Assembly: GCA_021732525.1 (NCBI GenBank)
Contig: JAKFUU010000018.1
Span: forward strand, 62,001-126,000
Direction: 5' to 3'
DNA: 64,000 nucleotides
Source of the DNA: Sphingomonadaceae bacterium
GTDB taxonomy: Bacteria > Pseudomonadota > Alphaproteobacteria > Sphingomonadales > Sphingomonadaceae
The notes under the pieces are model-generated. The model was not told the origin of the DNA, made no database searches, and saw nothing but the letters and a program-made list of their open reading frames with translations. The position numbers and the translations under genes are program-made. Every line of letters begins with the position of its first letter. The first letter of the stretch is position 1. Of this stretch, positions 46,702 to 62,728 are shown one piece after another.

Positions 46702-46724
46702 TAAAAAATAAGATGACATCAACT
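46702..46724 (+). promoter_or_regulatory. Shared operator-like element, copy 1 (SDR/FadB intergenic)
   Basis: An A-rich tract (46702-46709) is followed by TGACATCA (46714-46721) inside GATGACATC. It lies 172 bp before the SDR start on the plus strand and 85 bp from the FadB-like start on the minus strand, so it could act on both. The same core and A-rich tract recur in front of five other units of this cluster. Confidence 0.55.
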
Positions 46725-46885
46725 TTATTTGACAGGAACGTCTTTAAGCTGTAAAGACCAGCCGATGGAATGGTTCGTTGGCGAGGAAATTCCTGAGGCG
46801 GCAGCATGACCGCGGTAGCTGTTGAATTAACATCAATCTGCGCGTGTAGGGCTATTCAAAGATCGAAAAAGTGGGAGTGAATGCG

Positions 46886-47638
46886 TTGGCTAAATTGAAT
46901 GATCGCGTGAGCATCATCACCGGCGGTGTGCGGGGAATTGGCTTTGGAACCGCGCAAAGGCTTGCGCAGGATGGGAGCATCGTCGCAGTGGTCGATCTGA
47001 ACGCAGATGCTGCCGAAGCTGCCGCCCAGCGACTACGCGATCAAGGATTTACAGCGACTGGCTATGGCGCGGATGTCACGAAGGATGGTGAAATCGAGGC
47101 TGCAATACAGCAGATCGCCGATCAATATGGCCGGATTGATGCCCTGATAAACATTGCCGGTATCTGGAGTTCGGTACCCTTCGAGGATCTGAGCTTTGAG
47201 GAATGGCGCCGTGTATTTGACGTCAATGTCGACGGTGTGTTTCGCGCATGCCAGTCTGCCTATCGCGTCATGAAAGCGGCGGGATATGGCCGAATTGTCA
47301 ACATCGCCACGGGTGCGGTCGCAACCGGTCGCCCGACCATGGCCCATTACGTCGCAAGTAAGGCCGCTGTGATCGGCCTAACCCGCGTGATCGCGTCCGA
47401 GGGCGGCGCGCATGGGATCACTGCAAACGTAGTCGCGCCTGGCCTGATCGCGACCGAAGGTGTGCTAGAGACGTCTGACATCAGCGTCCTAGAGAGCGAG
47501 GTTGTCCCACTGCAAAAGGTAAAACGGGTTGGTCAGCCGTCCGATATCGCGGAAGCCATAGCCTACCTCATTAGCCCCGAAGCCAGTTTCGTCACCGGAC
47601 AGACCCTTTTTGTAGATGGAGGAATGGTGTTTAACTGA
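46886..47638 (+). CDS. SDR family NAD(P)-dependent oxidoreductase
   Basis: This is a 250-residue classical short-chain dehydrogenase. It has the cofactor motif TGGVRGIGFG (Gly-rich loop), NIAG (about 91), the catalytic Ser region NIATGAVATG and Tyr-x3-Lys in HYVASKAAVIG. VDLNAD after strand 2 suggests NAD preference. It closes with the SDR C-terminal pattern ASFVTGQTLFVDGGM. TTG at 46886 is chosen because GGGAG lies eight bases upstream and the protein then begins MAKLNDRVSIITGG; GTG codons at 46871 and 46877 are alternatives. It probably oxidises a ring or chain alcohol to the ketone used by the monooxygenase downstream. Confidence 0.9.
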   Translation: MAKLNDRVSIITGGVRGIGFGTAQRLAQDGSIVAVVDLNADAAEAAAQRLRDQGFTATGYGADVTKDGEIEAAIQQIADQYGRIDALINIAGIWSSVPFEDLSFEEWRRVFDVNVDGVFRACQSAYRVMKAAGYGRIVNIATGAVATGRPTMAHYVASKAAVIGLTRVIASEGGAHGITANVVAPGLIATEGVLETSDISVLESEVVPLQKVKRVGQPSDIAEAIAYLISPEASFVTGQTLFVDGGMVFN

Positions 47639-47714
47639 ATGGGCCAGCAACTATCAGGTGGCTCAATTTGAGCGTTGGGGAGGCGGCATTGGATCGCCCG
47701 CTTGACGCTTAAAA

Positions 47715-47736
47715 AAAGTGACGCTAGCATCACTTT
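47715..47736 (+). promoter_or_regulatory. Shared operator-like element, copy 2 (before the BVMO gene)
   Basis: A 22-bp palindrome (10 of 11 pairs) has arms AAAGTGA and TCACTTT around a GCTAGC centre, preceded by further A residues. It differs from the TGACATCA core by carrying TGACGCTA/TGATGCTA, but shares AGCGTCACT on the minus strand with copy 3. It lies 166 bp before the monooxygenase start. Confidence 0.6.
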
Positions 47737-47901
47737 ATTCTACTTTTTTGCTGCGAAGGCAGACGACGAATGTCTGAATGGGGATGTAATTTTATGATTT
47801 GGACGGCGCTTTACGGGACTCAGCATCAACCAGTGCCCTGAACGATGCACATTGGATGGGCCGCCGTCGATTAGCGAAAAGACTGACTGGAGAGACTGAG
47901 A

Positions 47902-49713
47902 ATGAACGTACAAAATTCAACATCGGCCATAGATATCGATCTGGTCGCGCTCCGGGAAAAGTACCGTGAAGAACGGGACAAGCGGAAACGGCCTGAGGGA
48001 GAAAAGCAATATCTTGAGACTGAGGCTGACCTAGCCGATTTCTATGAAACTGACCCGCACACCCCAGTTGCAGCGCGTGAACCCATCGTCGAAGAAATTG
48101 AGGTAGCGATTCTTGGTGGCGGCTTCGCCGGCCTTCTAGCAGCCGTCAATCTGCGCAAGTCAGGCGTCGAAGACTTTCGTATTATAGAAATGGCCGGAGA
48201 CTTTGGCGGCACTTGGTATTGGAACCGCTATCCGGGGGTTCAGTGCGACATTGATTCTTGTTGTTATTTTCCACTTCTCGAAGAACTTAACTACATTCCT
48301 TTGCATAAATACTCGTACGGTACAGAAATTTATGAGCACTGTCAGAGAATTGCACAGCACTTCGATCTATATGGACGTGCAATTTTCCATACGATCATAC
48401 GCTCTGTAAATTGGGATGCTGAGAGTTCAAGGTGGTTCATTGAAACAGATCGTGGCGACCTTATCAAAGCGCGGCATTTCGTACTGGCGTCTGGACCCTA
48501 CAATCGCCCCAAGCTCCCGGGTATTCCAGGTTTGCAGGAGTTTAGCGGATATGCATTTCACACATCGCGTTGGGACTATGACTATACAGGTGGAAACGCA
48601 GCTGGTGGTCTAGTTAAGCTAGCAGACAAGCGGGTCGCCATCGTCGGAACTGGGGCCACTGGGATCCAATGTATCCCGTTTGTCGGCGAATATGCTGAGA
48701 AACTTTATGTGTTCCAGCGTACGCCGTCCGCAGTCGATTTCCGCAACAACGCGTTGACGCCTCCCGATTTTAAGCAGGGTCTGAAGCCCGGATGGCAGCG
48801 AGAAAGGCAATTAAGCTTTCATATGGCAACCTTTGGACTGCATCCTCCAGGGCATATAGATCTTGTCAATGATGGCTGGTCGGCAATTAATCGGACGGTA
48901 GCGGCACAGATTGAGGCCAATCCGTCGCTAACGGAACAGGAAATTGCTGATATCCGTGAACTTGAAGACTATCGATACCAGAAATGGCTGCGCGAACGTG
49001 TCGATCAGGTTGTAAAAGATCCCGCTACCGCAGAAAAACTGAAGGCTTGGTATCGCTTTAACTGCAAACGACCCACGTTTAATGACGAATATCTACCGAC
49101 CTTTAACCGGCCAAACGTCGAACTGATCGACGTTTCAGATAGCAAAGGTGTTGAGAAGATCACCAAGAACGGCATCGTGGCCAATGGTGTTGAATATCAA
49201 GTGGATTGCATCATTTTTGCCAGCGGTTTCGAAGTGACCACGGAGATGAAGCGGCGCATCGGGATACCTGTGTTTAACGGCATTGATGGAAAGTCCTTAT
49301 ACGATCATTGGGCAAATGGGTTCCGAACGCTGCACGGCATCACAACCAGTGGCTTTCCGAACCTCTATATTACGGGCTTTATTCAGGGTGGAGCCACATC
49401 AAATGTTTCGCACTTGTACGAAGAGCAAACCAATCACATTGCATATATTATAAGCGAAGCAATGAAGCGTAACGCAACGAAGGTTGAACTATCTGTTGAA
49501 GCGGAGCAGGCTTGGATCAAAACTATGCGCGATACTGAGGTGTCAAATGCAGAGTTTTTCGCCGAATGTACGCCTGGCTACTACAACAACGAAGGCGGAA
49601 AGACTCGGCGGTCCCATATCGGTGAGGTCTACGGCCCGGGCTATCCAGCGTTCGTTGAGTTGCTGGATGACTGGCGTAAGGCTGGCACGCTGGAGGGACT
49701 GGCACTGAGGTAA
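47902..49713 (+). CDS. Type I Baeyer-Villiger monooxygenase
   Basis: This 603-residue FAD- and NADPH-dependent monooxygenase inserts oxygen next to a ketone to give an ester or lactone. It has the FAD Rossmann motif ILGGGFAG (70-77), [16 protein letters not shown] (101-116), and the type I BVMO fingerprint F-x-G-x3-H-x3-W-D at 214-225 ([12 protein letters not shown]). The NADPH motif is IVGTGATG (247-254). A 60-residue N-terminal extension before the FAD domain resembles the cyclopentadecanone/steroid-type BVMOs rather than cyclohexanone monooxygenase. It is preceded by a copy of the shared operator-like element and stands alone on its strand. Confidence 0.93.
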
Positions 49714-49799
49714 GCTATAGGGCTGATCGTTATGATCGGGCCCGAATTGACCAATGCAAATGCCCGGCGGCAGGTCGCTTTGCTAGGGACTTGCCGCCA

Positions 49800-51593
49800 T
49801 TACTTTATCGTGGACGGTGCAAGAAAACCTACAGGAACAGGGATCGGGAAATCGAGCAAAATCTGCGCGTGTCCCTTCCCTTGGGGGTCGTTCCGCAGCG
49901 ATGCGATGCCGCCACCGTCCAAAGCTTCAGTCAGCAGGAAATTCAGCCCATTGATTCCGGGCAGGTCGAAGCGCGTCACCGTTCCGCGAACATTGTAGGC
50001 GAAATAGTCTCCAATTGCTGCTTCCGTAAGGGCAGCACGAATGTAGGGAAGGAACTCTGCCTTCCGCGCAATGACGCCGATGTTGACCGAATTGCCCTTG
50101 TCGCCGCTCCTTGCCCACGCGAGCTCTATAAGGGGGACGCTGTGCGTGGCGTATGCCAACCCTTCCGGTTCAGGCATGGACAAAGCAGATGTCGTTATTT
50201 CGGCAGCGGCAATCCCAGTGGGGCGTTCGACTGCCATGGTTTTGCCTTCGACATCAATCTCCAGGGGAACATTTGCCTTGGGGATAAGGCAGCTGAACAA
50301 GCGCACAAGTGGCATCACGCGGGGTCGGTTGCCGCCGAGATTGGTGATGCCAGGGGCCATTGAGGTTCCCGATGAAGTTGCCTCCTTGACCAGCAGTTCG
50401 AGCGCGGAGGCCTCGCCATGTTTGGCCGCCAGCTTCATTATGACCTCGCGTGCGTTGCCAGCGCGCGAATGCGGCCCGTAAGCGGCTTCCGCACCGATAA
50501 TTTCGAGCGAGGTTTCGCTGTACGAAGGCAGGCCCCTGTCGTTGAGGAGGCGCTCGCAGCGGCGGAGAACAGATTCGCCCACCATGCGCGCCTTTTTCGC
50601 GGCATCGATGCCAATGACTGTCAAATATAGCCCGACCCGGAAGCCGTCGCGGAAGGTTACGCTCGCCTTGTAGCTGTCGGTTGGTGCTCGAGCCTTGGCA
50701 TTGCGGACATGGACCCGATCTTCGCCGATTTCGCTTATTTCCACTTGGGTGAAATCGCAGACTACGTCTGGCAGGATATAGGCACCCGGGTCTCCGATCT
50801 CGTAGACAAGCTGTTCGGCCACCGTCCCGTAGGAAACAACCCCGCCCGTACCCGGCACCTTCTCAACGTCAAACGAGCCGTCGGCATAGAGCGCAGCAAT
50901 CGGATAGCCGACGTCGGACCATTCTCCGCTCTTTTCCCAATCGGTGTGAATGCCGCCGCTTGCCTGGGCGCCACATTCAAGAATATGTCCCGCGAGTGAA
51001 CCTCCGGCCATTTGGTCGAGATCCGATGCCGTCCAGCCGAATTCATAGATGCATGCACCAAGAGTTACGGCGCTGTCGACACAACGCCCGGTAACCACAA
51101 TATTGGCCCCCTCATTAAGTGCCGCTGCAATCGGGAAGGCACCGAGATAGACGTTAGCGCTCTGAATGTCATCGGGCAGCGGATCGCCGTTGAACATATC
51201 CCGGATGTCGGCCTGACGCAGATCATTGAGCTGGCCCATGATATCGTCGCCGCGAACGACAGCTACCTTTAGGTCAAGTCCCTGTTGCCGGATCGCATCG
51301 CGGATCGCGTTCGCACACGCGTCGGGATTGACGCCCCCGGCATTGGAGACGATCTTGATCTTGCGCTTCGCGATTTCAGGCAAGTGCCGCGCGAGCGATG
51401 AGACAAAATCGGTGGCATAGCCGGCATCCGGATTGCTAGCGCGGGCGCGGGCCATGATCGACATGGTGATTTCAGCGAGATAGTCGAAGACGATATAGTT
51501 CAGATCGGATGCGCGCAGCAATTGCGGCAGGCCAATTGCGGAATCGCCCCAGAAGCCGGAGGCGCCACCAATTTTGATCACGCGGCTGCTCAT
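49800..51593 (-). CDS. Acyclic terpene utilisation AtuA-type protein (DUF1446)
   Basis: This 597-residue protein has a DUF1446 domain (about 1-450) beginning VIKIGGASGFWGDS, with IVSNAGGVNPDACANAIRD and VVTGRCVDSAVTLG. A C-terminal ferredoxin-like AtuA domain (about 490-590) contains IELAWARSGDKGNSVNIGVIA (quoted in part) and INGLNFLLTEALDGG. AtuA is required for citronellol/geraniol use in Pseudomonas, where its gene is clustered with geranyl-CoA carboxylase, but its chemistry is not settled. Here it is the last gene of the carboxylase operon, overlapping the biotin subunit stop by ATGA, so it is likely to act on the same acyl-CoA. Confidence 0.9.
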   Translation of the reverse strand: MSSRVIKIGGASGFWGDSAIGLPQLLRASDLNYIVFDYLAEITMSIMARARASNPDAGYATDFVSSLARHLPEIAKRKIKIVSNAGGVNPDACANAIRDAIRQQGLDLKVAVVRGDDIMGQLNDLRQADIRDMFNGDPLPDDIQSANVYLGAFPIAAALNEGANIVVTGRCVDSAVTLGACIYEFGWTASDLDQMAGGSLAGHILECGAQASGGIHTDWEKSGEWSDVGYPIAALYADGSFDVEKVPGTGGVVSYGTVAEQLVYEIGDPGAYILPDVVCDFTQVEISEIGEDRVHVRNAKARAPTDSYKASVTFRDGFRVGLYLTVIGIDAAKKARMVGESVLRRCERLLNDRGLPSYSETSLEIIGAEAAYGPHSRAGNAREVIMKLAAKHGEASALELLVKEATSSGTSMAPGITNLGGNRPRVMPLVRLFSCLIPKANVPLEIDVEGKTMAVERPTGIAAAEITTSALSMPEPEGLAYATHSVPLIELAWARSGDKGNSVNIGVIARKAEFLPYIRAALTEAAIGDYFAYNVRGTVTRFDLPGINGLNFLLTEALDGGGIASLRNDPQGKGHAQILLDFPIPVPVGFLAPSTIK

Positions 51594-53533
51594 GCCGCGT
51601 CTGCTTCGATCAGCGCCAGATGTGCCTTGTTGGCAACCTGGGTGCCGACAACGCAGGCTATTGAACTCACTACACCGTCGATTGTGGCAAGAATATTGTG
51701 CTCCATTTTCATGGCTTCAATTACCATAATGACATCGCCGCGCGTCACGCGGTCACCTTCCTGTACACGTATTGCCGAAACAGTTCCGACCATCGGCGCG
51801 CGAAGATCGCCTCCCAATGCATCGGAGTTCGACGCTGGTGGAGCATAAGTGATATCCTTCAGCAGCCAGATGGTGTCGCCAACGTCAAGCCATACAGCAT
51901 CGCTATCGACCAAATAGGGTGTCCGGCGCATGACCCCATCGGAACTCCATCGAGCGACGCCCGGTTCGCTTTGGTCTAAGATAAGGCTTACGCTTCCATT
52001 CTCAGATTTGATGCGCCAAGCCGACCCTTCACGAGCTACGTGGAGCTCGTGCTGCGTCCCCTTGCACTCGAGTTTGACAGGGTAGTTCATCCACACACTT
52101 GGCTGCCAGTCCTGATCATTCAGTTGCGCTGCGAGAATGGCGGCCAAAGCGAGCAGATCGTCCGAGGCGCGCGCGCCATCTTCTGTCTCGCCGAAGCGTC
52201 GCTGAATAAAGCCCGTTGTCGCCTCGCCATTGACGAATTCCTCATCCTCAAGGATCCTCAACAGAAAAGCCCGGTTGGTCACCACCCCCAATGCCCTGGT
52301 GTCTTTAAGGCCACGGACCAGACGGCGCCTGGCTTCCTCACGGTCATTGCCCCAAGCGATGACCTTGGCGATCATCGAATCGTAAAATGGCGATATCGTC
52401 GCCCCGGGCATTAGGCCGTGATCGGTGCGGATATCATCCGCCGGCTTCCAAGCGGCCAATGTTCCCGTCTGCGGCATGAAATTCTGATCGGGGTCCTCGG
52501 CGTAGAGGCGCACCTCGATCGAGTGACCTTTGAGCCGCACATCTTCCTGCGCAATCGGTAGCGGTTTGCCCGCTGCGACGTCCAGTTGCAAGCCGACCAG
52601 ATCAAGACCAGTGATCATCTCCGTCACTGGATGTTCGACCTGAAGACGGGTATTCATCTCCAGGAAGTAGAATTCGCCGTTTGAATCGAGAAGAAACTCG
52701 ACTGTGCCCGCTCCAACATAATCGATCGCCTGCGCGGCCTTTACCGCGGCAGCACCCATGCGCGCACGCAAAGCGGCATCGACAGCAGGCGAGGGTGCCT
52801 CCTCGACCACCTTCTGGTGGCGTCGCTGCACCGAACAGTCGCGCTCGCCCAAATGAATGATTTGACCATGGGTGTCACCGAACACTTGGATTTCGACATG
52901 GCGAGGCTCAATGACCGCCCGTTCGAGCAGCAGCCGGTCGTCACCAAAGGCATTCTTGGCTTCGGACCGGCACGAAATGATCGCTGACGCGAGATCCTCT
53001 GCTTTCGCGACTAGCCGGATGCCGCGTCCTCCGCCGCCAGCGGAGGCTTTGACCATCATCGGATAACCGATGGCGATCGCAGCCTCGATCAACCTCGCGT
53101 CGGTTTCATCTTCGCCTTCATAGCCGGGAATGCAGGGAACCCCGGCCGCAATCATCCGCCGTTTAGATTCCGATTTGTCGCCCATTGCCCGGATTGCGTC
53201 CGGGCGCGGTCCGATGAAAACGAGGCCGGCATCGATGCAGGCCTCGGCAAACTCCGCACGCTCAGAAAGGAAGCCGTAACCAGGGTGCACCGCGTCCGCG
53301 CCGCTGCGTCGCGCCGCATCGATAATCCGATTGGCATCGAGGTAGGATTGGCCGACTGGGGCCGGTCCTATCAGGACAACCTGATCAGCCATCCGGGCGT
53401 GCCGCGCCTGAGCGTCGGCTTCGCTCACGACCGCGACCGTATCGAACCCTCTGTCCTTCGCGCTCTGGATAATGCGGCAGGCGATCTCACCACGATTGGC
53501 GACCAATATCTTCTTGAAAGGACGAAACATCAT
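51590..53533 (-). CDS. Acyl-CoA carboxylase, biotin-containing alpha subunit (geranyl/methylcrotonyl type)
   Basis: This is a 647-residue subunit with a biotin carboxylase domain (KILVANRGEIACRI at the start, ASAGGGGRGIRLV, ERDCSVQRRHQKVVEEAPSP in part, FLEMNTRLQVEHPVTE), a linker domain and a C-terminal biotinyl domain with the biotin lysine in VIEAMKMEHN (Lys609). The ATG at 53533 shares its A with the preceding stop (TAATG). With the carboxyltransferase gene of the same operon it would carboxylate a beta-methyl-enoyl-CoA such as methylcrotonyl- or geranyl-CoA. The AtuA neighbour favours an isoprenoid substrate over methylcrotonyl-CoA. Confidence 0.92.
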   Translation of the reverse strand: MMFRPFKKILVANRGEIACRIIQSAKDRGFDTVAVVSEADAQARHARMADQVVLIGPAPVGQSYLDANRIIDAARRSGADAVHPGYGFLSERAEFAEACIDAGLVFIGPRPDAIRAMGDKSESKRRMIAAGVPCIPGYEGEDETDARLIEAAIAIGYPMMVKASAGGGGRGIRLVAKAEDLASAIISCRSEAKNAFGDDRLLLERAVIEPRHVEIQVFGDTHGQIIHLGERDCSVQRRHQKVVEEAPSPAVDAALRARMGAAAVKAAQAIDYVGAGTVEFLLDSNGEFYFLEMNTRLQVEHPVTEMITGLDLVGLQLDVAAGKPLPIAQEDVRLKGHSIEVRLYAEDPDQNFMPQTGTLAAWKPADDIRTDHGLMPGATISPFYDSMIAKVIAWGNDREEARRRLVRGLKDTRALGVVTNRAFLLRILEDEEFVNGEATTGFIQRRFGETEDGARASDDLLALAAILAAQLNDQDWQPSVWMNYPVKLECKGTQHELHVAREGSAWRIKSENGSVSLILDQSEPGVARWSSDGVMRRTPYLVDSDAVWLDVGDTIWLLKDITYAPPASNSDALGGDLRAPMVGTVSAIRVQEGDRVTRGDVIMVIEAMKMEHNILATIDGVVSSIACVVGTQVANKAHLALIEADAA

Positions 53534-54345
53534 TATGCCTCCGAAGCCCATTGCGGGCGGCGCTTTTCCCTGAAGGCCTGAACACCCTCCTGACCCTCTT
53601 CACTGTTCAGGCTGGTGAAGAAAGCGTCGGCCGCTTCATCAGCAAAGGAAGGCCGGTCGGCCGAGGCCGCCTTAATGAAGAGCGATTTCGTTGCCGCGTT
53701 CGCCATCGGCGCGCAGCGCGCGATGCCTGAAAATATGCTTTCCAGAAGCGGGGTCGCCTCTTCAGCGGTTGGGACAAAAAAGTCGATCAGACCAATCTGC
53801 TCAGCCCCATGTCCGTCGAGCCGTGCGCCGGTCAAAGCGAGCCGTTTTGCAACACGCAGTCCAAGGCGGCTCACGACATAAGGCGATATCTGTGCCGGAA
53901 CCAGGCCGAGGCTGGTTTCGGACAGCGAAAAGCGCGCTCGTGCAGTTCCGATGACGATGTCGGAGCAGCAGGCGAGGCCAAAGCCGCCACCGAAGGCAGG
54001 ACCGTCGACCACGGCGATCGTCACGACCGGCAGTTCCGCGACCCGCCGAAACAGCTCGCCGCCGCGCCGATTGGAGCGCCAACCACTGCTTTCCCGCATC
54101 TCCAAACCAGCATCGTCGGTACCTGTAGCCTTAAGGTCTGCACCGGCGCAGAAGAGTCCATTGGCACCCTGGATGACCACCGCACGGATGCTGCGATCAA
54201 CTTCGACAACGTCCATGATGCCCTCAAGGTCGTCGACCAGATCCGCTGTCATTGCATTGCGGGTCGCGGGATCGTCGATCGTCACGAACAAACACCAATC
54301 ATCACGGCGCAATTTGAGCGATCGGGTTTCTGGAAGTTTGCTCAT
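53533..54345 (-). CDS. Enoyl-CoA hydratase/isomerase family protein
   Basis: This is a 270-residue crotonase-fold enzyme. Oxyanion-hole segments are GLFCAGADLKATG (about 65) and GPAFGGGFGLACCSDIVIG (about 113), followed by FSLSETSLGLVPAQISPYV. It lies between the carboxyltransferase and biotin subunits, which is the position of the methylglutaconyl-CoA or isohexenylglutaconyl-CoA hydratase in liu and atu operons. It would hydrate the carboxylated intermediate. AAGGA precedes the ATG and the gene overlaps the next by one base. Function is assigned by fold and context, with the exact substrate open. Confidence 0.9.
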   Translation of the reverse strand: MSKLPETRSLKLRRDDWCLFVTIDDPATRNAMTADLVDDLEGIMDVVEVDRSIRAVVIQGANGLFCAGADLKATGTDDAGLEMRESSGWRSNRRGGELFRRVAELPVVTIAVVDGPAFGGGFGLACCSDIVIGTARARFSLSETSLGLVPAQISPYVVSRLGLRVAKRLALTGARLDGHGAEQIGLIDFFVPTAEEATPLLESIFSGIARCAPMANAATKSLFIKAASADRPSFADEAADAFFTSLNSEEGQEGVQAFREKRRPQWASEA

Positions 54346-54354
54346 CGTCAGTCC

Positions 54355-55968
54355 TTAAATCCGCGCGACCCCAAAGGTATTCGCGTTTGGAGCCTTGATG
54401 TCGGCCTCGATGCAGGTGTCGAGACAGAAGCTCAGCACAGCGCGCGTATCGCGGGGATCAATAATGCCGTCATTCCAAATCCGGGCGGTAGCAAAGAGCG
54501 CGCGACCCTCATCTTCATAGGCGGAAGTGACCTTGCCGGTCTGCGCTGCGATCGCGGCGTGATCAGGCTCCTGGCCCTTGCGGCGCGCACTTGCTTCTCC
54601 GACGATTGCAAGCACCTTGGCCGCCTGCTCCCCCCCCATAACTGACTGGCGGTTGTTGGGCCATGAAAAGACAAAGCGAGGACCGAAGCCCCGGCCACAC
54701 ATAGCGTAATAGCCCGCGCCAAACGCGGCGCCGATTTGTACCGTTATCTTGGGAACGGTTGCATTAGTGACAGCCTGGATCAGCTTGGACCCATGCTTTA
54801 CGATCCCCGCCCGTTCTGCCTCAACCCCAACGATGAAGCCGGTCGTGTTCTGAAGGAACACCAGCGGCACTCCCATCTGGCAGCTGAACTGGATGAAATG
54901 CGTTGCCTTGGCCGCGCCGGCAGCCGTGATCGGGCCGTTGTTGCCTATCATGCCGACCTTCTTGCCTTCGATGTCAGCATGGCCGCAGATTGTGTAGCTG
55001 TCCCAGTCTGCCTTGAATTCCAGAAAGTCGGAATCGTCGACGATCCGGGCGATGACTTCCCGCACATCATACGGCTTGCGATAGTCCACTGATGCAACGT
55101 CAAGCAGTTCTTCAGCCGGATAGCGCGGAGGTTTGACCGGCAGCTTCGGATGGGGCGGGATGGGGGCCGGAAAGCGACTGAACAATTCCCGTGCGATCCG
55201 GATGGCGTCGCTGTCGTCTTCGGCCAGCCATTCCCCCAAGCCTGTGACCTGAGAGTGCAGCTCCGCGCCGCCCAGACTTTCATCATCGGCGACCTCCCCC
55301 GTAGCAGCAAGCAGCAGCGGGGGGCCAGCGAGAAAGACTTTCGAACGGCCGCGCACCATGATGATGTAATCGGCTAGACCCGCCTGATAGGCGCCGCCAG
55401 CAGTGGAGGAGCCATGGACGAGCGAGACCACCGGAATACCGGCGGCCGACAGCCGCGCCATGTTCCCGAACACAGCGCCGCCCGGAACAAACAATTCCGA
55501 CTGAAGCAGCAAATTTGCACCAGCGCTCTCGACAAGCTGGACCAGCGGAAGCTTGTTCTCCATTGCGATCTCCTGGAGTCTGAGAAGCTTTTGCGTGCCC
55601 ATCGGATGGTTGGCGCCGCCCCGAATGCCTGAGTCGCTAGCTTGGATCATGCACCGAATACCGGCGATATGGCCAATGCCAGCAATAATGCCACCCCCGA
55701 ACACATGGGAATGGCCGTCATCTTCGTGCATCCCGAGGCCGGCGAGGGAGGATAGTTCGAGGAAGGTGGAGCCGCGATCAATAAGGCGGCTGATCCGTTC
55801 GCGGGGTAGCAACTGACCGCGTTCGCGGAAACGCGCCTCGACGCGCGCAGACGTCTCGACCACTTTTCGCTCAAGTGAGCGGAACTCGTCTATTAGCGCT
55901 AAGTGTGCCTTGCGATTAGAAGCAGACTGTTCGCTCTCGATGAAAACGCTAGATTCCAGTATTGGCAT
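54355..55968 (-). CDS. Acyl-CoA carboxylase, carboxyltransferase beta subunit (geranyl/methylcrotonyl type)
   Basis: This is a 537-residue carboxyltransferase with N- and C-terminal crotonase-like halves. Characteristic pieces are RERGQLLPRERISRLIDRGS near the N-terminus, ESAGANLLLQSE, HGSSTAGGAYQ, FLQNTTGFIVG, GAAKATHFIQF and FGAGYYAMCGRGF. The length matches MccB/AtuC. It transfers CO2 from biotin on the alpha subunit to the gamma carbon of the enoyl-CoA. AGAGGG lies before the ATG. It heads the four-gene operon carboxyltransferase, hydratase, biotin subunit, AtuA, and copy 3 of the shared operator-like element lies 113-130 bp upstream. An HMG-CoA lyase and an acyl-CoA dehydrogenase, usual companions, are missing. 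Confidence 0.92.
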   Translation of the reverse strand: MPILESSVFIESEQSASNRKAHLALIDEFRSLERKVVETSARVEARFRERGQLLPRERISRLIDRGSTFLELSSLAGLGMHEDDGHSHVFGGGIIAGIGHIAGIRCMIQASDSGIRGGANHPMGTQKLLRLQEIAMENKLPLVQLVESAGANLLLQSELFVPGGAVFGNMARLSAAGIPVVSLVHGSSTAGGAYQAGLADYIIMVRGRSKVFLAGPPLLLAATGEVADDESLGGAELHSQVTGLGEWLAEDDSDAIRIARELFSRFPAPIPPHPKLPVKPPRYPAEELLDVASVDYRKPYDVREVIARIVDDSDFLEFKADWDSYTICGHADIEGKKVGMIGNNGPITAAGAAKATHFIQFSCQMGVPLVFLQNTTGFIVGVEAERAGIVKHGSKLIQAVTNATVPKITVQIGAAFGAGYYAMCGRGFGPRFVFSWPNNRQSVMGGEQAAKVLAIVGEASARRKGQEPDHAAIAAQTGKVTSAYEDEGRALFATARIWNDGIIDPRDTRAVLSFCLDTCIEADIKAPNANTFGVARI

Positions 55969-56080: not shown

Positions 56081-56098
56081 AGTGACGCTGATGTCACT
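56081..56098 (-). promoter_or_regulatory. Shared operator-like element, copy 3 (before the carboxylase operon)
   Basis: AGTGAC and GTCACT arms (6 bp each, perfect) flank a six-base centre. Read on the minus strand the site contains TGACATCA directly after an eight-base A-run and continues GCGTCACT. It is oriented toward the carboxylase operon like the other copies are toward their genes. Confidence 0.6.
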
Positions 56099-56208: not shown

Positions 56209-56955
56209 CTACATGAAAATTGCGCGGCCGAGGCGGACGCCCCAATCTTCATCGGGGTTGGAGGTTGTGTCGCCGAGACGTTCCTGGATCACCGCCACAT
56301 ATAAATCGCGGCGCGCCGGCAGCTTGGCACGCTCAGCTGCAGCCAGCGCGGGGCCAACCTCCTCAAACGTCAAATCCGTGCAATAGGCAGGGGCACCTGG
56401 CTGCAAACGCCAGGACGTCTCCAACGGACCCGCATCGAAGGGATCAAGGCCACTGTCATTGACCAGCGCCATGGCGACTTCCCGATCACGCGCGCGATCA
56501 GCCGCTACGGGAATGGCGATACGGCCGGTCGAACCCTTCGGCGCACCCTTTTTCGCGAGGGAAGCCGATCCGATCGCGTTCCAAGCCTTGGCAATGGGAT
56601 GGCCGAGTTGCTCTTGAACCCACTCGCTTTCTATCTGTCCATTTTCAATGGCGTCTACCTGGCCGTCGCGGAACGCATAATAGTTGGACGTGTCGATCAC
56701 CACGGTGTCCTCCGGCAACGCTGAGATGAGCGGGGCGACGCCGGTGAGGCAATGGAACGGAATCGACAGAATGACGGCCTCGACATCATGCACGGCTTCC
56801 TGCGACGTGACAGCACGCGCGCCTGACGCGAGAATGTCCACATCGATCGTATCCGGCCCCCGAGAGTTGGCGATTTTTACGTCATGTCCTGCAGCGCACA
56901 GGGTGCGAACGAGCGTCTTGCCAATCTGTCCAGTACCAAGAATTCCGATTTTCAT
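56209..56955 (-). CDS. NADPH-binding reductase (F420-reductase/COG2085-like)
   Basis: This is a 248-residue protein with an N-terminal Rossmann domain KIGILGTGQIGKTLVRTL and VKIANSRGP, where the Ser-Arg after strand 2 suits NADPH. It continues with VILSIPFHC, VVIDTSNYYAFRDGQ and KAWNAIGS. It resembles the F420-dependent NADP reductase/6-phosphogluconate-like superfamily, whose bacterial members are often redox- or electrophile-linked oxidoreductases. It is transcribed divergently from an HxlR regulator across 110 bp that hold an inverted repeat. This pairing suggests control by that regulator. The substrate is unknown. Confidence 0.8.
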   Translation of the reverse strand: MKIGILGTGQIGKTLVRTLCAAGHDVKIANSRGPDTIDVDILASGARAVTSQEAVHDVEAVILSIPFHCLTGVAPLISALPEDTVVIDTSNYYAFRDGQVDAIENGQIESEWVQEQLGHPIAKAWNAIGSASLAKKGAPKGSTGRIAIPVAADRARDREVAMALVNDSGLDPFDAGPLETSWRLQPGAPAYCTDLTFEEVGPALAAAERAKLPARRDLYVAVIQERLGDTTSNPDEDWGVRLGRAIFM

Positions 56956-56972
56956 ACCCTACCCTAACCTAC

Positions 56973-57004
56973 CCATAGTTGTTGTACTGCACCCTGAACT
57001 ATGG
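56973..57004. promoter_or_regulatory. Inverted repeat in the HxlR/reductase divergent promoter region
   Basis: CCATAGTT (56973-56980) and AACTATGG (56997-57004) are perfect 8-bp arms separated by 16 bases. They lie midway in the region between the divergent reductase and HxlR genes. A TTGTAC-17-TTAAGT arrangement (56982-57010) toward the regulator overlaps the repeat. This is the likely autoregulatory operator. Confidence 0.6.
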
Positions 57005-57065
57005 TTAAGTGGTTTTTTTATCAAGAACCCACCAAATTGTTGGTAACAAACTAAAAGGTAAGTGT

Positions 57066-57446
57066 ATGGTAGATCGTGACTGGCGATGTGAGGATCCGAA
57101 GCAACAGCTCTTCTGGGCCGCCGCAACCAGTGAGGCGCTGCGTGTGCTCGAAGGCAAGTGGAAGATAGTCATCATCTTTCAGCTATTTGCGGCCAAAGGT
57201 TGCTTGCGATTTTCGGAGCTTGAGCGCCGCGTCGAAGGCGTCAATCAGAAGATGCTGATCCAGCAGCTTAAACAGCTGGAGAAGGACGGAATCGTGTCGC
57301 GCACCGTTTATCCTCACGTGCCGCCAAAGGTTGAATATGCGCTCAGCGAGATGGGGCTGGCGCTCGGGCCGTCCATCGAAGCGCTGGTTGACTGGACGTT
57401 CATGCGCCGGGCCGAGTTGGGTGATGCGCGCCAGGAACAGGCTTGA
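57066..57446 (+). CDS. HxlR-family winged-helix transcriptional regulator
   Basis: This is a 126-residue regulator of the HxlR type. It has LRVLEGKWKIVIIFQLF (helix 1 and the conserved GKW), then LRFSELERRVEGVNQKMLIQQL (recognition helix; quoted in part) and EKDGIVSRTVYPHVPPKVEY, the family wing. Cys8 near the N-terminus is at a place where redox-sensing HxlR proteins such as HypR carry their reactive cysteine. A second cysteine is in KGCLRF. ATG at 57066 follows AAAAGG. It is divergent from the NADPH reductase. It is the only dedicated DNA-binding regulator seen in the catabolic cluster. Confidence 0.9.
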   Translation: MVDRDWRCEDPKQQLFWAAATSEALRVLEGKWKIVIIFQLFAAKGCLRFSELERRVEGVNQKMLIQQLKQLEKDGIVSRTVYPHVPPKVEYALSEMGLALGPSIEALVDWTFMRRAELGDARQEQA

Positions 57447-57503: not shown

Positions 57504-57536
57504 AAATATTGACATCACATTCATGACGTCTAACAT
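57504..57536 (+). promoter_or_regulatory. Promoter with shared operator-like core, copy 4 (before the second SDR)
   Basis: TTGACA (57509-57514), a 16-bp spacer and TAACAT (57531-57536) form a good sigma-70 promoter. The exact core TGACATCA (57510-57517) covers the -35 box, and a second TGACGTC half occurs at 57524-57530. This places the core at -35, a position suited to a repressor or to a class II activator. Confidence 0.6.
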
Positions 57537-57659
57537 AGCATCCCGTACCGAGTGTGGGAAATCGCGCTGATGCGCAACCAGGATCCAGTTTTTCCGCCCA
57601 GCCGGTGGGCGATCGGATGCGTACCGGAGCCGTACGTTGTCCTGAATGAGGTGTTCGGT

Positions 57660-58427
57660 ATGTCAAAACGTCTTGCGGGTAAGGTCGCCATTATCACTGG
57701 AACGGGTTCAGGCACTGGCCGGGCCGCGGCACTGTTGTTCGCCCGAGAGGGTTCGAAGATAGTGGGCTGTGACCTAAATCCGGACGCAGGCAAAACAGCT
57801 GAAGACGTCAAACGCGCGGGCGGGGAAATGATATCTCTGCAACCGGTCAACCTCTCGGAAAAGGAAGGCGCCGAAAGGCTGATCTCCTTTGCTGTGGATG
57901 CCTATGGCGGGTTCGACATCCTGTATAATAACGCAGCGATGGCCTATTATGGCTTTGTAGGCGAATTGGAGCATGAAACCTTCAGGAATACCATGCGGGA
58001 TGAGGTCGACATAATCTTCCATGTCTGCCGCGCGGCCTGGCCACACCTTATTACAAGAGGCGGAGGCTCCATCATCAATACGGCATCGACTGCGGCGTGG
58101 CGGGCTGACCCCGGCTTTCCGTTGCTGGCGCATAGTGCTGCAAAAGGTGCGGTCGTCGCTATGAGTCGTCAATATGCCGCTGAAGGCGCTGTCCATGGTG
58201 TCCGATGCAACACACTTTCCCCCGGAATGCTCCGAACGGCTCAAAGCGAAGCCAATTTGGCCGCCGATCCCGGACTTGAGGCGCGGTTGACAGAGCGCTG
58301 TCTGATCAAGCGGATCGGCAATCCCGAAGATGTCGCTTTTGCGGCCTTGTTCCTCGCCTCTGAGGAAAGTTCATACGTCACCGGTACGGACATCCTCGTT
58401 GATGGCGGGGTCTCTGCGCGATCCTAA
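57660..58427 (+). CDS. SDR family oxidoreductase
   Basis: This is a 255-residue classical short-chain dehydrogenase: [13 protein letters not shown] (cofactor loop), GCDLNPD (acidic residue after strand 2, pointing to NAD), NNAAMAYYG, and the active site [13 protein letters not shown]. The usual Tyr-x3-Lys reads [11 protein letters not shown], with His where Tyr is normally found; the Lys is kept. This substitution may alter or abolish dehydrogenase activity. The C-terminal [15 protein letters not shown] is standard. ATG at 57660 is chosen over an open frame from 57552 because of domain length. It starts the plus-strand run that continues with the medium-chain reductase. Confidence 0.88.
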
Positions 58428-58479
58428 CTCGCTGCGGGTATCATTCTGATCGCCGAGACATATTATTGGATAGAAGATA

Positions 58480-59493
58480 ATGCCCGACAACAGACAGTGG
58501 ATTTTGGTCAAGAAGCCCGCGGGCCTGGCAACCGAAGAGCATCTCGAATTGGTGACACGCCCAACCGGCGAACCAGGTCCCGGCGAAGTACTGATCGAGC
58601 AGTTCTGCCTGTCGCTTGATCCGGGTCAGAATTTCTACATGCAATCGTCGGCCGAAACCGGAGGCGGGACGATGACGATCGGCGATGTCGTACGTGGCTG
58701 GGGCGTCGGGCGCGTTGTTGCCAGCAAGTCGGAGCGCTTTCCAGTCGGATGCTATGTGCGCGATCGCTTCGGTTTTGCCGGAATGCAGGATTATGCGATG
58801 CTGCCCGAGACGTCGCTCTACCCTGTTGATCCCGGCCTGGCGCCGCTCCCGGCACAGATTGGCGTCCTCGGCATGCCTGGGCTTACCGCATATTTCGGCA
58901 TCATCGAAATTGGGAAACCGCAAGCAGGGGAGACGGTCGTTGTCTCAGGCGCGGCAGGAGCTGTTGGTTCGGCCGCAGGGCAATTGGCGAAGATCGTGGG
59001 CGCTCGCACCGTGGGAATTGCCGGCGGCCCTGACAAATGCCGATTTGTTGTTGAGGAACTCGGCTTGGATGTCTGCATCGATTATCGTGCTGCCGACTTC
59101 GAGGCACAGTTGGCGGCTGTCTGTCCTGACGGGATCGACCTCTATTTCGATAATGTTGCGGGCAAGATACTGGACGATTGCCTTGCCTTGATGGCCTATC
59201 GCGGTCGGGTCGTCTTCTGCGGCTCCGTCGCCGAGGCGAGCACTGTGGGCGAGTGGGATGGTTTGCGCAATTACGGCGCTGTTCTGTTCAACTCGCTGCA
59301 ATGGGAAGGCTTGTCGATTCACAATTATTATGACCGCTTCGACGAGGCCTATTTAGCACTCGAGGGCTGGTTCAGTGAAGGCAAGCTCCGCCATCGCGAG
59401 GACGTGATTGATGGGCTAGAGAACTTCATCCCCGCCTTCCATAGGTTGTTCCGAGGTGCCAATTTCGGAAAGCTGGTGCTAAAGATTAGATAA
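58480..59493 (+). CDS. NADP-dependent medium-chain oxidoreductase (PTGR/CurA-like)
   Basis: This is a 337-residue zinc-independent MDR enzyme of the prostaglandin-reductase/curcumin-reductase (YncB/CurA) group. It starts RQWILVKKPAGLATEEHLEL with GPGEVLIEQFCLSLDPGQ. It has LGMPGLTAYFGIIEIGKPQAGETVVVSGAAGAVGS (quoted in part), whose AAGAVGS binds NADPH, then FDNVAGKILDDCLALM and RGRVVFCGSVAEA. Members reduce alpha,beta-unsaturated ketones or aldehydes at the double bond. It follows the SDR gene by 52 bp. A role in saturating an enone intermediate before Baeyer-Villiger oxidation is plausible. Confidence 0.9.
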   Translation: MPDNRQWILVKKPAGLATEEHLELVTRPTGEPGPGEVLIEQFCLSLDPGQNFYMQSSAETGGGTMTIGDVVRGWGVGRVVASKSERFPVGCYVRDRFGFAGMQDYAMLPETSLYPVDPGLAPLPAQIGVLGMPGLTAYFGIIEIGKPQAGETVVVSGAAGAVGSAAGQLAKIVGARTVGIAGGPDKCRFVVEELGLDVCIDYRAADFEAQLAAVCPDGIDLYFDNVAGKILDDCLALMAYRGRVVFCGSVAEASTVGEWDGLRNYGAVLFNSLQWEGLSIHNYYDRFDEAYLALEGWFSEGKLRHREDVIDGLENFIPAFHRLFRGANFGKLVLKIR

Positions 59494-59515: not shown

Positions 59516-59541
59516 AAAAAACAGTGACATCATCTTTTAAT
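59516..59541 (+). promoter_or_regulatory. Shared operator-like element, copy 5 (before the LLM monooxygenase)
   Basis: An A-run (59516-59521) is followed by CAGTGACATCATCTTTTAA, with the exact core TGACATCA at 59525-59532. It lies 172 bp before the LLM gene. The first 19 bases are almost the same as copy 6. Confidence 0.6.
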
Positions 59542-59696
59542 TAGTCTAGTTCTTAAGAATCGATTTCCAAGGATGAAGTTCGTCCGAAGCGCAGTCCTGA
59601 CCTTGCTGGCTTTCGCTAGGCGAGTGCCGAGCAGCGCAGCCTGGCCGGAGATAATCTGCGGCGCTCGCGCGTCGTAAAGTCATATGGAGGATTGTT

Positions 59697-60689
59697 ATGG
59701 GTGAGATTTGGCTGCGTTGCGACATGCGAAGTGCAGACTTCGGGATCCCGACGCCTCGGCTCGCGCAGCTTCATCTTGAGCAGGTTGCCTGGGCTGACAA
59801 GATCGGTATCCAAACCATACAACTGCCCGAACATCATGGCGTGCCGGATGGTTATAATCCTTCTCCATTCGTTCTTGGCGCGGCCATCGCGGCGCGAACC
59901 GAGAAGGTTCGGATCAATCTATTTGCCTTGATTTTGCCTTTGCACGATCCCGTTCGGGTGGCCGAGGATTCGGTTGTGCTGGATAATATCAGCAATGGCC
60001 GTCTCGATTTGACAATAGGGCTTGGCTATGTTCCCTTTGAGTTCGCAATGTTAGGCGTGTCGCTCAAAGAACGCGCGAAACGGGTCGAGGCGGGCATCGA
60101 AGTGCTGCGGCGCAGTTTCGCCGGGGAGCAATTTGAATATGAGGGGCGCCCGGTCATGGTGAGGCCGTTGCCCGCTACGCGCAATGGACCACGAATCTTT
60201 GTTGGCGGCGGCGTGCCCGCATCCGCACAGCGGGCGGCGCGGCTTGGCGACGGATTCGCACCATCCCACCCGGATCCGGCGGAGCTGGTGGCGATCTACA
60301 AAGAGGCCTGTCGCGAGTTGGGCAAAGAGCCTGGACCGGTTTATGATTTGAGCGGTCATCAGTTTCTTTTCGTCACGGAAGATCCAGATGCCGCGTGGCA
60401 CAAGATCGCGCCATTCGCGTTTCATGAGACCAATACCTATGGCAAATGGGCAGCGCAGACAGATGCATTCACGCCGTTTCATACCCTGACCGACATTGAG
60501 GCGCTCAAGGCGAGCGGCCTCTACAAGGTTGTCACGCCTGAGGAGTGCATCGCGCTCGCGAATTCGCTCTTCGAAAGGGGTCTGGCCATGACAATCAACC
60601 CAACCCTTTGCGGGATGGACGAAGATTTTTCTTGGTCCAGCCTGGACCTGTTTGTCCGCAAGGTATTGCCGCATCTGAGCTTGGATTGA
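59697..60689 (+). CDS. LLM-class flavin-dependent monooxygenase (luciferase-like)
   Basis: This is a 330-residue luciferase-like TIM-barrel enzyme that uses reduced FMN or F420. Typical segments are IQTIQLPEHHGVPDGYNPSP (early barrel; quoted as one short piece), EKVRINLFALILPLHDPVR, DNISNGRLDLTIGLGY, RVEAGIEVLRRSFAG, and GPRIFVGGGVPASAQRAARLG (in part). Flavin-dependent members include type II Baeyer-Villiger enzymes acting on bicyclic terpenoid ketones; others are alkane or sulfonate monooxygenases. GGAGG lies six bases before the ATG. No separate flavin reductase is encoded here. It heads a unit with the P450 and NTF2-like genes. Confidence 0.88.
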   Translation: MGEIWLRCDMRSADFGIPTPRLAQLHLEQVAWADKIGIQTIQLPEHHGVPDGYNPSPFVLGAAIAARTEKVRINLFALILPLHDPVRVAEDSVVLDNISNGRLDLTIGLGYVPFEFAMLGVSLKERAKRVEAGIEVLRRSFAGEQFEYEGRPVMVRPLPATRNGPRIFVGGGVPASAQRAARLGDGFAPSHPDPAELVAIYKEACRELGKEPGPVYDLSGHQFLFVTEDPDAAWHKIAPFAFHETNTYGKWAAQTDAFTPFHTLTDIEALKASGLYKVVTPEECIALANSLFERGLAMTINPTLCGMDEDFSWSSLDLFVRKVLPHLSLD

Positions 60690-60783
60690 GCAGCTATGGC
60701 CTGCTGCAGGTTTGATGGTCACCGCCTTGCTCGGCCGGAGCTTGGGTCAAAAGACTATATAATATCAAATGGAGAATGCCGCT

Positions 60784-61986
60784 ATGAGCCAATCTATCAC
60801 TCGGATTCCTGCACTAGACATCAATTTCCTCGATCCAGATATCTCCCTGGATCCGTATCCCCATTATGAAAAGATACGGGCTCTTGGTCCCGCAGTGTGG
60901 AACCCAACACTAGACGGCTGGATGGTCGTGAATTATGCCGACATCAAGCAAATACACGTGGATCTTGATAACTTCACCAGCGAAGAAGGTCGGGCTCCAA
61001 AGCAACAGGGGGAAGTCCTTTCGACCATTGACGGGCCAATGCACCGCAAGATTCGCCTCGTGTGGCATTCGTCGTTCATGCGTAGCACCGTGGAAAAGCT
61101 GTCGGGCCAGTTTGATGAGCTTGTTGACTCACTGATTGCTGAACCTGTCGCGGAGATGAAACAGGGCAAACAAGTGAATGTGCTTCCCGCGATCCGCCGG
61201 CTGCCTTCGACCGTGATCGGCCGGATGCTCGGCGTGCCGCCCCGAAAAAGCGAAGCATTCATCCGCCTGGGTGATGCGATTTCGGACATGGTGTTTTCGG
61301 GCCTTCCCGATGACCATCCCATTGAGATCCGCCGGATGCAAGCCTTCGCGGAGTTCAACGAGTTGATGCTAGATGAGGTGAAAGATCGCCGCCGCAATCT
61401 CGGTGATGATCTCATCAGTGAGCTACTAAGATCTCAGGTGGCCGAGGAGCTGACGGACGAGCAAATTGCTGTTCATTCGGGGTTTCTGCTCTTTGCGGGC
61501 AATGAAACCACCGCGCGTCTTATTTCGAGCGTCCTGCGTATCCTGGCTGACCGACCAGAAACGCTGAAGGAAGTTGTTGCTGACAGATCCCTGGTTCCAG
61601 CAGCGATCGAGGAGACGCTGAGGTTCGATTCGGTAGTTCAAGTGAATTACCGCGCTGTAAAGAGCGACGCAGCCAACATTGGAGGCGTGCACATACCCAG
61701 GGGTGATGAAGTTCTAACCTTCACAGCAGCGGCAAACCGGGACCCGGCTCGCTATGCGGATCCCGACACATTTGACATTCATCGTTCGACGCAGGGACAT
61801 TTTGGTTTTGGATTTGGCTTCCACTCCTGCCTTGGCCTGAATCTCGCTCGCGTAGAGTCGATTGCCTTCCTCAACCGGTTTCTCGATCAGGTTCCCGATT
61901 TTGAAGTCGCGGGACTGGATCAAGGCGTACCTTTTCCAATCCGAGGCTACGCGAAGTTGTTTCTGAAGGCGAAGGGCATATCCTGA
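60784..61986 (+). CDS. Cytochrome P450
   Basis: This is a 400-residue soluble bacterial P450. The I-helix oxygen-activation motif is FAGNETTAR (Gly-x-Glu-Thr-Thr, acidic residue Glu as in many bacterial P450s), the K-helix motif is EETLR, and the heme loop FGFGFHSCLGLNLAR places the thiolate ligand at Cys349. DPYPHYEKIRALGP near the N-terminus is also typical. ATG at 60784 with GGAGA eight bases upstream is preferred over 60769. It would hydroxylate a substrate carbon with electrons from a ferredoxin and ferredoxin reductase. No ferredoxin gene is in the window. It follows the LLM gene by 94 bp. Confidence 0.95.
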   Translation: MSQSITRIPALDINFLDPDISLDPYPHYEKIRALGPAVWNPTLDGWMVVNYADIKQIHVDLDNFTSEEGRAPKQQGEVLSTIDGPMHRKIRLVWHSSFMRSTVEKLSGQFDELVDSLIAEPVAEMKQGKQVNVLPAIRRLPSTVIGRMLGVPPRKSEAFIRLGDAISDMVFSGLPDDHPIEIRRMQAFAEFNELMLDEVKDRRRNLGDDLISELLRSQVAEELTDEQIAVHSGFLLFAGNETTARLISSVLRILADRPETLKEVVADRSLVPAAIEETLRFDSVVQVNYRAVKSDAANIGGVHIPRGDEVLTFTAAANRDPARYADPDTFDIHRSTQGHFGFGFGFHSCLGLNLARVESIAFLNRFLDQVPDFEVAGLDQGVPFPIRGYAKLFLKAKGIS

Positions 61987-62072
61987 AAATGGAGGCGCTT
62001 GCCGCGTACCGGGCGATGTGCATCTAAACCAAGGGGCCGCAGTTGTGCAGCGATCTGATGAGGAGAATGGTG

Positions 62073-62615
62073 ATGGCGATTGACGAAGCGGCCTTGCAGC
62101 GCCTGCTTGACAAAGAAGAAATTCGCGAAGCCGTGCTCAAATATTCGCGTGGAACGGACCGCCATGACGAAGACTTGATGCGGCAGGCCTACCACCCCGA
62201 TGCCCGGGATGATCATGGCGGATATATCGGGGGTCCTGAGGGGCTTATCCAATATGTCAATGCAGTCCACACGGACAACTGGAGGGCCCATCACCACTTT
62301 GTCACCAACATGACAATCGAGATCGAGGGTGATGTCGCCCATTGCGAGACCTATAGCCTTGTAACACTCGCCCGCCACGAGGGCGGCATGATCGATGTGG
62401 GTGCCGGTCGCTATATGGACCGCTGCGAAAAGCGCGGGGGCAAATGGGCCATAGCCGAACGGATCAACATTGTTGAATATGTCGGTCTCCTCCCCGAAGC
62501 GAGCGAAGGCTCGGTGGACTACGATATGTTCGTGCGCGGCGCGTGGGACAGGTCGGATCCGTCCTATATGCGGCCGCTAAAGCTGGGCCGGCCAGACCGC
62601 TCTCCGCAGCAATAG
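62073..62615 (+). CDS. NTF2-like/SnoaL-type protein
   Basis: This is a 180-residue alpha+beta-barrel protein of the SnoaL_4 (PF13577) kind. It begins LDKEEIREAVLKYSRGTDRHD with an Asp-Asp-His-rich loop YHPDARDDHGGYIGG. It continues AHHHFVTNMTIEIEGDVAHCETYSLV (quoted in part) and GAGRYMDRCEKRGGKWAIAERI. Related proteins act as ring-hydroxylating dioxygenase-like small subunits, dehydratases or ketosteroid-isomerase-like enzymes. They are frequent in sphingomonad aromatic and terpenoid clusters with unproved functions. ATG at 62073 follows AGGAG. It is 86 bp after the P450 gene, likely in the same transcript. Confidence 0.82.
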   Translation: MAIDEAALQRLLDKEEIREAVLKYSRGTDRHDEDLMRQAYHPDARDDHGGYIGGPEGLIQYVNAVHTDNWRAHHHFVTNMTIEIEGDVAHCETYSLVTLARHEGGMIDVGAGRYMDRCEKRGGKWAIAERINIVEYVGLLPEASEGSVDYDMFVRGAWDRSDPSYMRPLKLGRPDRSPQQ

Positions 62616-62702
62616 GTGCTGTGCGAGCAATGCGGACAGGGGAGGCGGGCTGTGGTTCACACCTGCGGGCCCTATGGGGGAGCAGGTGGTCCATCTGGCA
62701 TT

Positions 62703-62728
62703 AAAAAACAGTGACATCATGTTCAAAT
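62703..62728 (+). promoter_or_regulatory. Shared operator-like element, copy 6 (before the VOC gene)
   Basis: An A-run (62703-62708) is followed by CAGTGACATCATGTTCAAA, with the exact core TGACATCA at 62712-62719. It lies 156 bp before the VOC gene. GTATAG/TATAGA at 62731-62737 could be the -10 box. The block is identical to copy 5 from the A-run through TGACATCAT. Confidence 0.6.

Follow-up and report, generated by a model that had tools for sequence, protein, structure and literature searches.

Does the short element that recurs in front of the catabolic genes of this locus act as a shared operator, how far does its regulon extend, and which protein recognizes it? The window, i.e., the whole stretch of DNA analyzed, comprises 64,000 nucleotides (positions 62001-126000 of contig C2) from the 3,009,692-base genome of a Sphingomonadaceae bacterium (in the following called G000); positions on the contig carry the prefix C2, those of the window stand alone. 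The initial annotation described an 8-bp core, TGACATCA, as a shared operator defining a probable regulon, and our analysis bears this out. The element, in its broader form TGAYRTCA, is enriched between genes, a model of it, at the sensitivity used, finds matches in this genome only within the cluster, and it is conserved in a homologous cluster of another genus (genome G127). The operator is genuine and conserved, and it belongs to a large catabolic regulon with an ordinary kind of mechanism.

All five exact copies of TGACATCA reported in the window are present, on the plus strand at 46714-46721, 57510-57517, 59525-59532 and 62712-62719 and on the minus strand at 56089-56096. The palindromic variant placed at 47715-47736 was likewise found, as AGTGACGCTAGCATCACT at 47717-47734, a long form (TGAY-N6-RTCA) without a TGAYRTCA core. 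A-rich runs precede copies as described, and the distance from core to start codon is about 120-170 bp (120-180 bp had been proposed), with ATG 57660 as the start of the open reading frame (ORF) at 57552. The 46714 copy lies between a divergent fadB-like/thiolase unit on its left and a short-chain dehydrogenase (SDR) gene on its right, and the variant upstream of a flavin monooxygenase (FMO)/Baeyer-Villiger-type gene. The 56089 copy is part of another long form, AGTGACATCAGCGTCACT (56081-56098, minus strand), upstream of a carboxylase/AtuA operon. Upstream of an SDR/zinc-type dehydrogenase unit lies the 57510 copy, upstream of a luciferase-like monooxygenase/P450/SnoaL unit the 59525 copy, which has the top model score (21.1 bits), and upstream of a glyoxalase-superfamily gene, with more genes to the right of the window, the 62712 copy. 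Six units had been claimed; because the 46714 copy sits between two divergent units, it may serve a seventh, and the thiolase homologue in G127 is also preceded by a site. Two additional exact copies in the window fall in coding DNA, one (38356, minus strand) overlapping the start codon of the reductase ORF 38355-39599 and one (47476, plus strand) inside the SDR ORF.

The seven copies of TGACATCA in the window were reached in none of 100 dinucleotide shuffles (mean 1.73, maximum 6). The rarity of an 8-mer, on which the initial annotation had relied, is nevertheless a weak argument: the genome holds TGACATCA 108 times, and TGACGTCA occurs at 48 places. The ten-mer AGTGACATCA is rare, with four places in the genome, namely the 56089, 59525 and 62712 copies and a distant one at C2:266392. 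The count of intergenic TGAYRTCA is stronger. Within C2:108500-189100, taken as the cluster, 15 copies lie in 9,094 intergenic bp, where composition predicts 0.53, and eight more lie in ORFs. TGAYRTCA is one of 128 patterns built alike (three bases, then YR or RY, then their complement), and none of the other 127 had more than three intergenic copies in this region. Control stretches of the same genome contained one intergenic TGAYRTCA in 5,657 bp (C2:42001-108500) and none in 5,661 bp (C9:30001-89052). A second cluster, suspected on contig C9 from the density of TGACGTCA, was ruled out, as all 11 TGAYRTCA in 59 kb there lie in ORFs. The ORF calls were mechanical, making intergenic counts approximate, and the limits of the cluster were fixed after the sites were known, so that the intergenic count favours the claim; the tests with a matrix, a model and G127 share this weakness less.

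Right of the window, a matrix built from the five window cores yielded, at a threshold of 10, 11 matches in 7,581 intergenic bp and four in 55,519 coding bp; left of the cluster, the numbers were zero in 5,657 intergenic bp and two in 60,843 coding bp. With the threshold lowered to 8, there were 13 intergenic and five coding matches right of the window, and one intergenic and seven coding matches left of the cluster. In the G127 cluster, the threshold of 10 gave 18 intergenic matches in 10,415 bp and three coding ones, and three flanks gave none in 10,746 intergenic bp and two in coding DNA. We then scanned the whole genome of G000, a check proposed at the outset, with a model made from the 15 sites. 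The 24 rows at E ≤ 10 all lay within C2:108700-189004; the model had been trained on these very sites, and the scan scored 150 of its 877 first-look candidates. At the sensitivity used, the motif is confined to this cluster.

Aligning the half-sites on the core (15 sites, both strands) revealed an A four positions outside in 27 of 30 and an A nine positions outside in 24 of 30. From this preference, the operator is best written A-N4-A-N3-TGAYRTCA-N3-T-N4-T. Its distinctive element is an A/T-rich-armed palindrome, A-N3-TGAYRTCA-N3-T, larger and differently shaped than TGACATCA alone, and the best copy is the perfect 18-bp palindrome AATATTGACGTCAATATT at C2:169292-169309 (core at 169297). The long forms, which have another half-site at an offset of six bases, are a minority (47717 and 56081 here, 1196250 and 1220911 in G127). 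Of the dimeric site of about 18 bp that had been suggested, the dimer-type palindrome therefore stands, but AGTGA...TCACT is not supported as its general form. Possibly, two overlapping dimers occupy the long forms.

Conservation was assessed with the same 15-site model across 397 genomes of the family, 13 of which had matches at E ≤ 0.05; G127 had two. Laxer filters gave 15 rows at E ≤ 3 in this held-out genome; they represent nine distinct sites, and every row fell into C1:1169738-1226314 (genome size 3.4 Mb; 150 of 583 candidates scored). This stretch is homologous to the cluster in the window, with identities up to 84.5%; the values, rounded, are 85% for the carboxyl transferase, 72% for the biotin carboxylase, 74% for AtuA and 80% for the thiolase, as well as 79 and 84% for CoA transferase subunits and 81% for an acyl-CoA dehydrogenase. 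It contains 15 intergenic TGAYRTCA and five in ORFs; the other 127 patterns reached at most four intergenic copies. Over composition, the intergenic enrichment is 25- to 28-fold in two homologous clusters of different genera. Upstream of the operon homologous to the carboxylase/AtuA operon, G127 has TGATATCA. Among 12 homologous gene pairs, an exact core within 300 bp upstream was present in both genomes for six, only in G000 for one, only in G127 for two and in neither for three; the pairs were hand-picked, and two of them, SDR (49% identity) and TonB (34%), are possibly not orthologous. For 11 of the 12 pairs the upstream regions aligned no better than the best of 50 shuffles, and the twelfth aligned over the site itself. 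Sites are therefore conserved before homologous genes although the upstream DNA has otherwise diverged, and the check by homologous clusters that had been proposed is borne out by a cluster of another genus. Two relatives from the same genus as G127 had no model rows (G050) and one (G228) at E ≤ 3 with laxer filters.

Eleven further genomes had matches at E ≤ 0.05, all single rows except G153 with two rows at one place; short loci were viewed in all of them and longer stretches in G101, G293, G212 and G244. At E ≤ 3 with laxer filters, rows elsewhere numbered six in G212, four each in G101 and G293, three in G153, and two each in G269 and G220. An AAAAGTGACATTGACATCACTTTTACATT element occurs in two genera (G101:C21:97515 and G293:C1:754828), and the copy in G101 precedes an ORF similar to the P450 of our cluster. 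The conjugative plasmid of Sphingobium sp. WTD-1 encodes a carboxylase/AtuA operon (carboxyl transferase 65% identical), a thiolase (85%) and a different TetR gene. Its 41.6 kb contain one intergenic TGAYRTCA and two in ORFs, with none before the carboxylase/AtuA operon; in this single instance, these enzymes are not accompanied by the element.

How far does the regulon extend? When the TGAYRTCA of C2:42001-204000 were classed by position, 15 of those from 108714 to 188983 proved intergenic, ten of them right of the window, so that the element runs on for about 63 kb past the window end. The extent of 16 kb given initially was an understatement; the sites probably define one local regulon over a catabolic region of about 80 kb (C2:108.7-189 kb), of which the window holds about the left fifth. 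Left of the cluster, at 34708-37411, lie a phage-type integrase ORF and a transposase-type helix-turn-helix (HTH) ORF, possibly the edge of an acquired island. Right of the window, sites precede a TonB-receptor-like ORF (C2:132214; receptor label by eye), an SDR gene (C2:138245), a CoA-transferase pair (C2:138393), a cupin gene (C2:146969), an HpcH/HpaI aldolase gene (C2:161814), acyl-CoA dehydrogenase genes (C2:169004 and C2:169297) and an F420-biosynthesis operon (C2:175107). The latter (C2:175495-180886) consists of genes for a radical-SAM CofH-type protein (CofH_C domain), npdG, and CofE-, CofD- and CofC-family proteins. The regulon appears to include this operon; four of its five genes were queried by tblastn against 100 kb of G127, and none was found there. 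F420 production has been reported for Alphaproteobacteria in the part of the source available (PMC8498797).

In agreement with the initial annotation, to which no regulator was obvious in the window, the best candidate is encoded about 60 kb past its end, near the right edge of the cluster before insertion sequence elements. This is a TetR-family protein of 221 residues (C2:185851-186516; Pfam TetR_N, E 4.4e-11), and we consider it rather probable that it regulates the sites, to which it would bind. An HTH scan of the cluster identified only this protein and an HxlR-family protein among the ORFs scanned; it covered most ORFs of at least 100 amino acids, two of them in part, leaving out C2:136165-136530, C2:132294-134702 and C2:140446-142836. 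The cupin protein at C2:147052, with a site 83 bp upstream, was rejected as a regulator, as it matched no HTH family at E ≤ 0.01. The TetR candidate has an N-terminal TetR HTH followed by an all-helical ligand domain, and its predicted structure is a nearly all-helical TetR fold (best mean predicted local distance difference test score 83.8; 63-69 in the other four models). TetR folds head the PDB search, and SaFadR-DNA, SaFadR-lauroyl-CoA, EthR and Bacillus FadR are among the closest; this likeness to SaFadR and FadR structures makes an acyl-CoA effector plausible.

The motif and this TetR protein co-occur in G000 and G127. Two homologues are encoded in the G127 cluster (57 and 60% identity), and G220 has one 33% match; G000, G127 and G220 are the only ones of the 397 family genomes with matches at E ≤ 1e-15. 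Stricter limits left 2 of 396 genomes in an order sample, 1 of 13 within the genus of G127 and, in a class sample, 1 of 373 (G000 itself), these samples and the family sample overlapping rather than being independent. When the TetR alignment was scanned against genome contigs, one distant Paenarthrobacter locus was retrieved (31% identity) and not used. A plasmid search returned 88 records, in each of which the best place was below 60% identity.

Relatives of the TetR family usually repress, and a ligand releases them. On this basis, a TetR dimer would bind each TGAYRTCA palindrome and act as a repressor until a pathway intermediate, plausibly an acyl-CoA, released it from the DNA. Uptake receptors, oxidizing enzymes, beta-oxidation enzymes and the F420-biosynthesis operon would then be induced jointly. 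Taken as a whole, this explanation, with one local regulon, a dimer-bound palindrome and a TetR repressor, is the one toward which we lean, with reservations.

Several observations weigh against it. The initial annotation had expected an autoregulated TetR gene to the right; a TetR-family gene is there, but no exact core precedes it in G000, nor either copy in G127. The closest approach to a core is one TGACATAA at C2:186804 in G000, and the operator in the regulator's own promoter that is common, if not universal, in this family was not found. Only two genomes carry the pair of motif and TetR, and they share the whole cluster, so that co-occurrence does not distinguish TetR from the other genes they share, nor from a regulator with its gene elsewhere. 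Many units have no site: the exact core occurs in 10 of 24 promoter-type gaps here and in 12 of 28 in G127, as compared with 1 of 15 and 0 of 2 control gaps (mechanical ORF picking omitted the gaps of the C2:108714 and C2:124712 copies from this count). Finally, a different cluster in G212 (C39:214507-230811), with penicillin amidase, beta-lactamase-like, AMP-binding and TonB-like genes, contains five intergenic TGAYRTCA, four of which have an additional half-site at a distance of six bases. One of the five lies 48 bp before the gene for an XRE-cupin regulator and the other four within 16 kb, and TetR profile matches were absent from the 60 kb examined. Such a sequence by itself therefore does not identify a TetR operator, and operators of different regulators may look alike.

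These points lend some weight to a considerably less probable alternative, in which the sites would serve as operators for a regulator whose gene lies outside the cluster, such as one of the XRE-cupin or another family, and TetR would control something else. The coreless tetR promoter and the similar element in front of the XRE-cupin gene of G212 would fit this idea. However, 80 of the 397 family genomes had matches to the XRE-cupin type of G212 at E ≤ 1e-12; G000 had none and G127 was not among the 80, and we rejected this type as the regulator. The genome-wide part of the regulator screen was devoted to the XRE-cupin type, to the exclusion of other families encoded elsewhere in the genome.

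Very unlikely, by comparison, is that the sites are parts of promoters, namely extended -35 elements of sigma-70 promoters (TTGACR/GTGACA), rather than a separate operator. TTGACA or TTGACG does overlap several copies, e.g., at 57509, where the core had been noted to cover the -35 box. As a general rule this finds no support: for 20 singly oriented sites, the mean score of -10-like matches at a spacing of 15-19 bp was 2.80 of 6 for the strand facing the gene and 2.95 for the opposite strand. In addition, the conserved part is palindromic and reaches to both sides, and general promoter elements are not expected to cluster in one genome region. As the -10 matches do not favour the gene-facing strand, they do not fix the sites relative to the transcription start, and activation is also conceivable.

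More improbable still is the HxlR-family protein (57009-57446) as the regulator. It lies beside a site-bearing promoter, between two site-bearing regions, and is the only HTH regulator among the scanned ORFs of the cluster in the window. Its own divergent promoter, however, lacks TGAYRTCA, and no convincing homologue turned up in the 100-kb region of G127 to which the search was confined (best match by tblastn with E 0.52, spanning 49 amino acids), on which grounds it was rejected. Its gene forms a divergent pair (56209-57446) with that of an F420_oxidored-domain oxidoreductase, without the shared operator in between. Chance recurrence of an 8-mer, for which the frequency of TGACATCA in the genome could be cited, has a negligible probability given the enrichment of both clusters over same-form controls, the held-out G127 scan and the pair comparison, in which sites were kept before homologous genes.

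Beyond the TetR repressor favoured here, a bolder version can be formulated, which we regard as unlikely. In it, a TetR lineage present in two genera here would run a regulon of about 80 kb for polycyclic or isoprenoid-type degradation via dispersed TGAYRTCA palindromes, coupled to on-demand F420 synthesis in a sphingomonad; at some promoters, an extra half-site shifted by 6 bp could allow two dimers to bind in overlap, and in another genus an unrelated XRE-cupin regulator would have converged on nearly the same operator.

The genes of the cluster were assigned by Pfam domains. From the left, the window encodes on the minus strand a thiolase (43340-44572; Thiolase_N/C) and a fadB-like multifunctional protein (44569-46677; 3HCDH, ECH_1), followed on the plus strand by the SDR (46871-47638; adh_short) and the flavin monooxygenase (47902-49713; Pyr_redox_2, FMO-like), which is probably of the Baeyer-Villiger type. 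The operon at 49800-55968 (minus strand) encodes an AtuA-family protein, biotin carboxylase, enoyl-CoA hydratase and carboxyl transferase, with 72-85% identity to the homologous operon in G127. On the plus strand follow an SDR and a zinc-type dehydrogenase/reductase (57552-59493), a luciferase-like monooxygenase, a cytochrome P450 and a SnoaL_4 protein (59697-62615), and a Glyoxalase_4 superfamily protein (62868-63380). The cluster as a whole contains SDRs, a flavin monooxygenase, P450s, luciferase-like monooxygenases, SnoaL proteins, acyl-CoA dehydrogenases and a thiolase, along with CoA transferases, an acyl-CoA carboxylase with AtuA, hydantoinase-type genes and TonB genes. This content suggests that the cluster degrades a polycyclic or isoprenoid-like substrate, presumably via beta-oxidation-type steps. 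At C2:151100-153107 lies the frame of a pyrroloquinoline quinone-type alcohol dehydrogenase, in which family similarity begins at residue 1 with profile position 71; it may be interrupted or start late.

Sequence alone has thus sufficed to define a regulon whose operator can be tested and for which a candidate regulator can be named. The operator marks likely pathway genes, such as those of the putative F420 operon and the TonB receptors, which may aid in finding the substrate, and the system could supply a new inducible promoter-repressor pair. Titles and abstract openings of the literature searched did not describe this operator.

Among known systems, the acyclic terpene utilization (Atu) cluster of Pseudomonas is controlled by the TetR-like repressor AtuR, which, in the part of the source available, binds two 13-bp inverted repeats in the atuA-atuR intergenic region (PMC3511530). 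Here, in contrast, many copies are scattered, and tetR, instead of neighbouring the AtuA operon, is about 68 kb away from it. The clusters resemble each other in having AtuA, carboxylase subunits and enoyl-CoA hydratase; the comparison is one of descriptions, with the sequence of AtuR and the letters of its operator outside it. KstR2, a weak PDB sequence match of the candidate (E 5e-4), has a regulon in mycobacterial steroid catabolism in which one TetR-type repressor governs many catabolic units through a palindrome. Its operator differs from ours, and its regulon serves steroid catabolism, which is at most a possibility for the present cluster. In the TetR-type FadR paradigm, beta-oxidation genes at several loci are under acyl-CoA-responsive control; SaFadR and Bacillus FadR share with the candidate the fold, though only 18-21% identity, and operators lay outside this comparison. 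Finally, PheR of Sphingobium sp. SHPJ-2, treated as an IclR-family protein in the accessible part of its description, represses uptake and catabolism genes and requires GCAACG in its site (PMC13273656). Although unrelated in sequence, PheR resembles the proposed TetR repressor in controlling uptake and catabolism in a sphingomonad.

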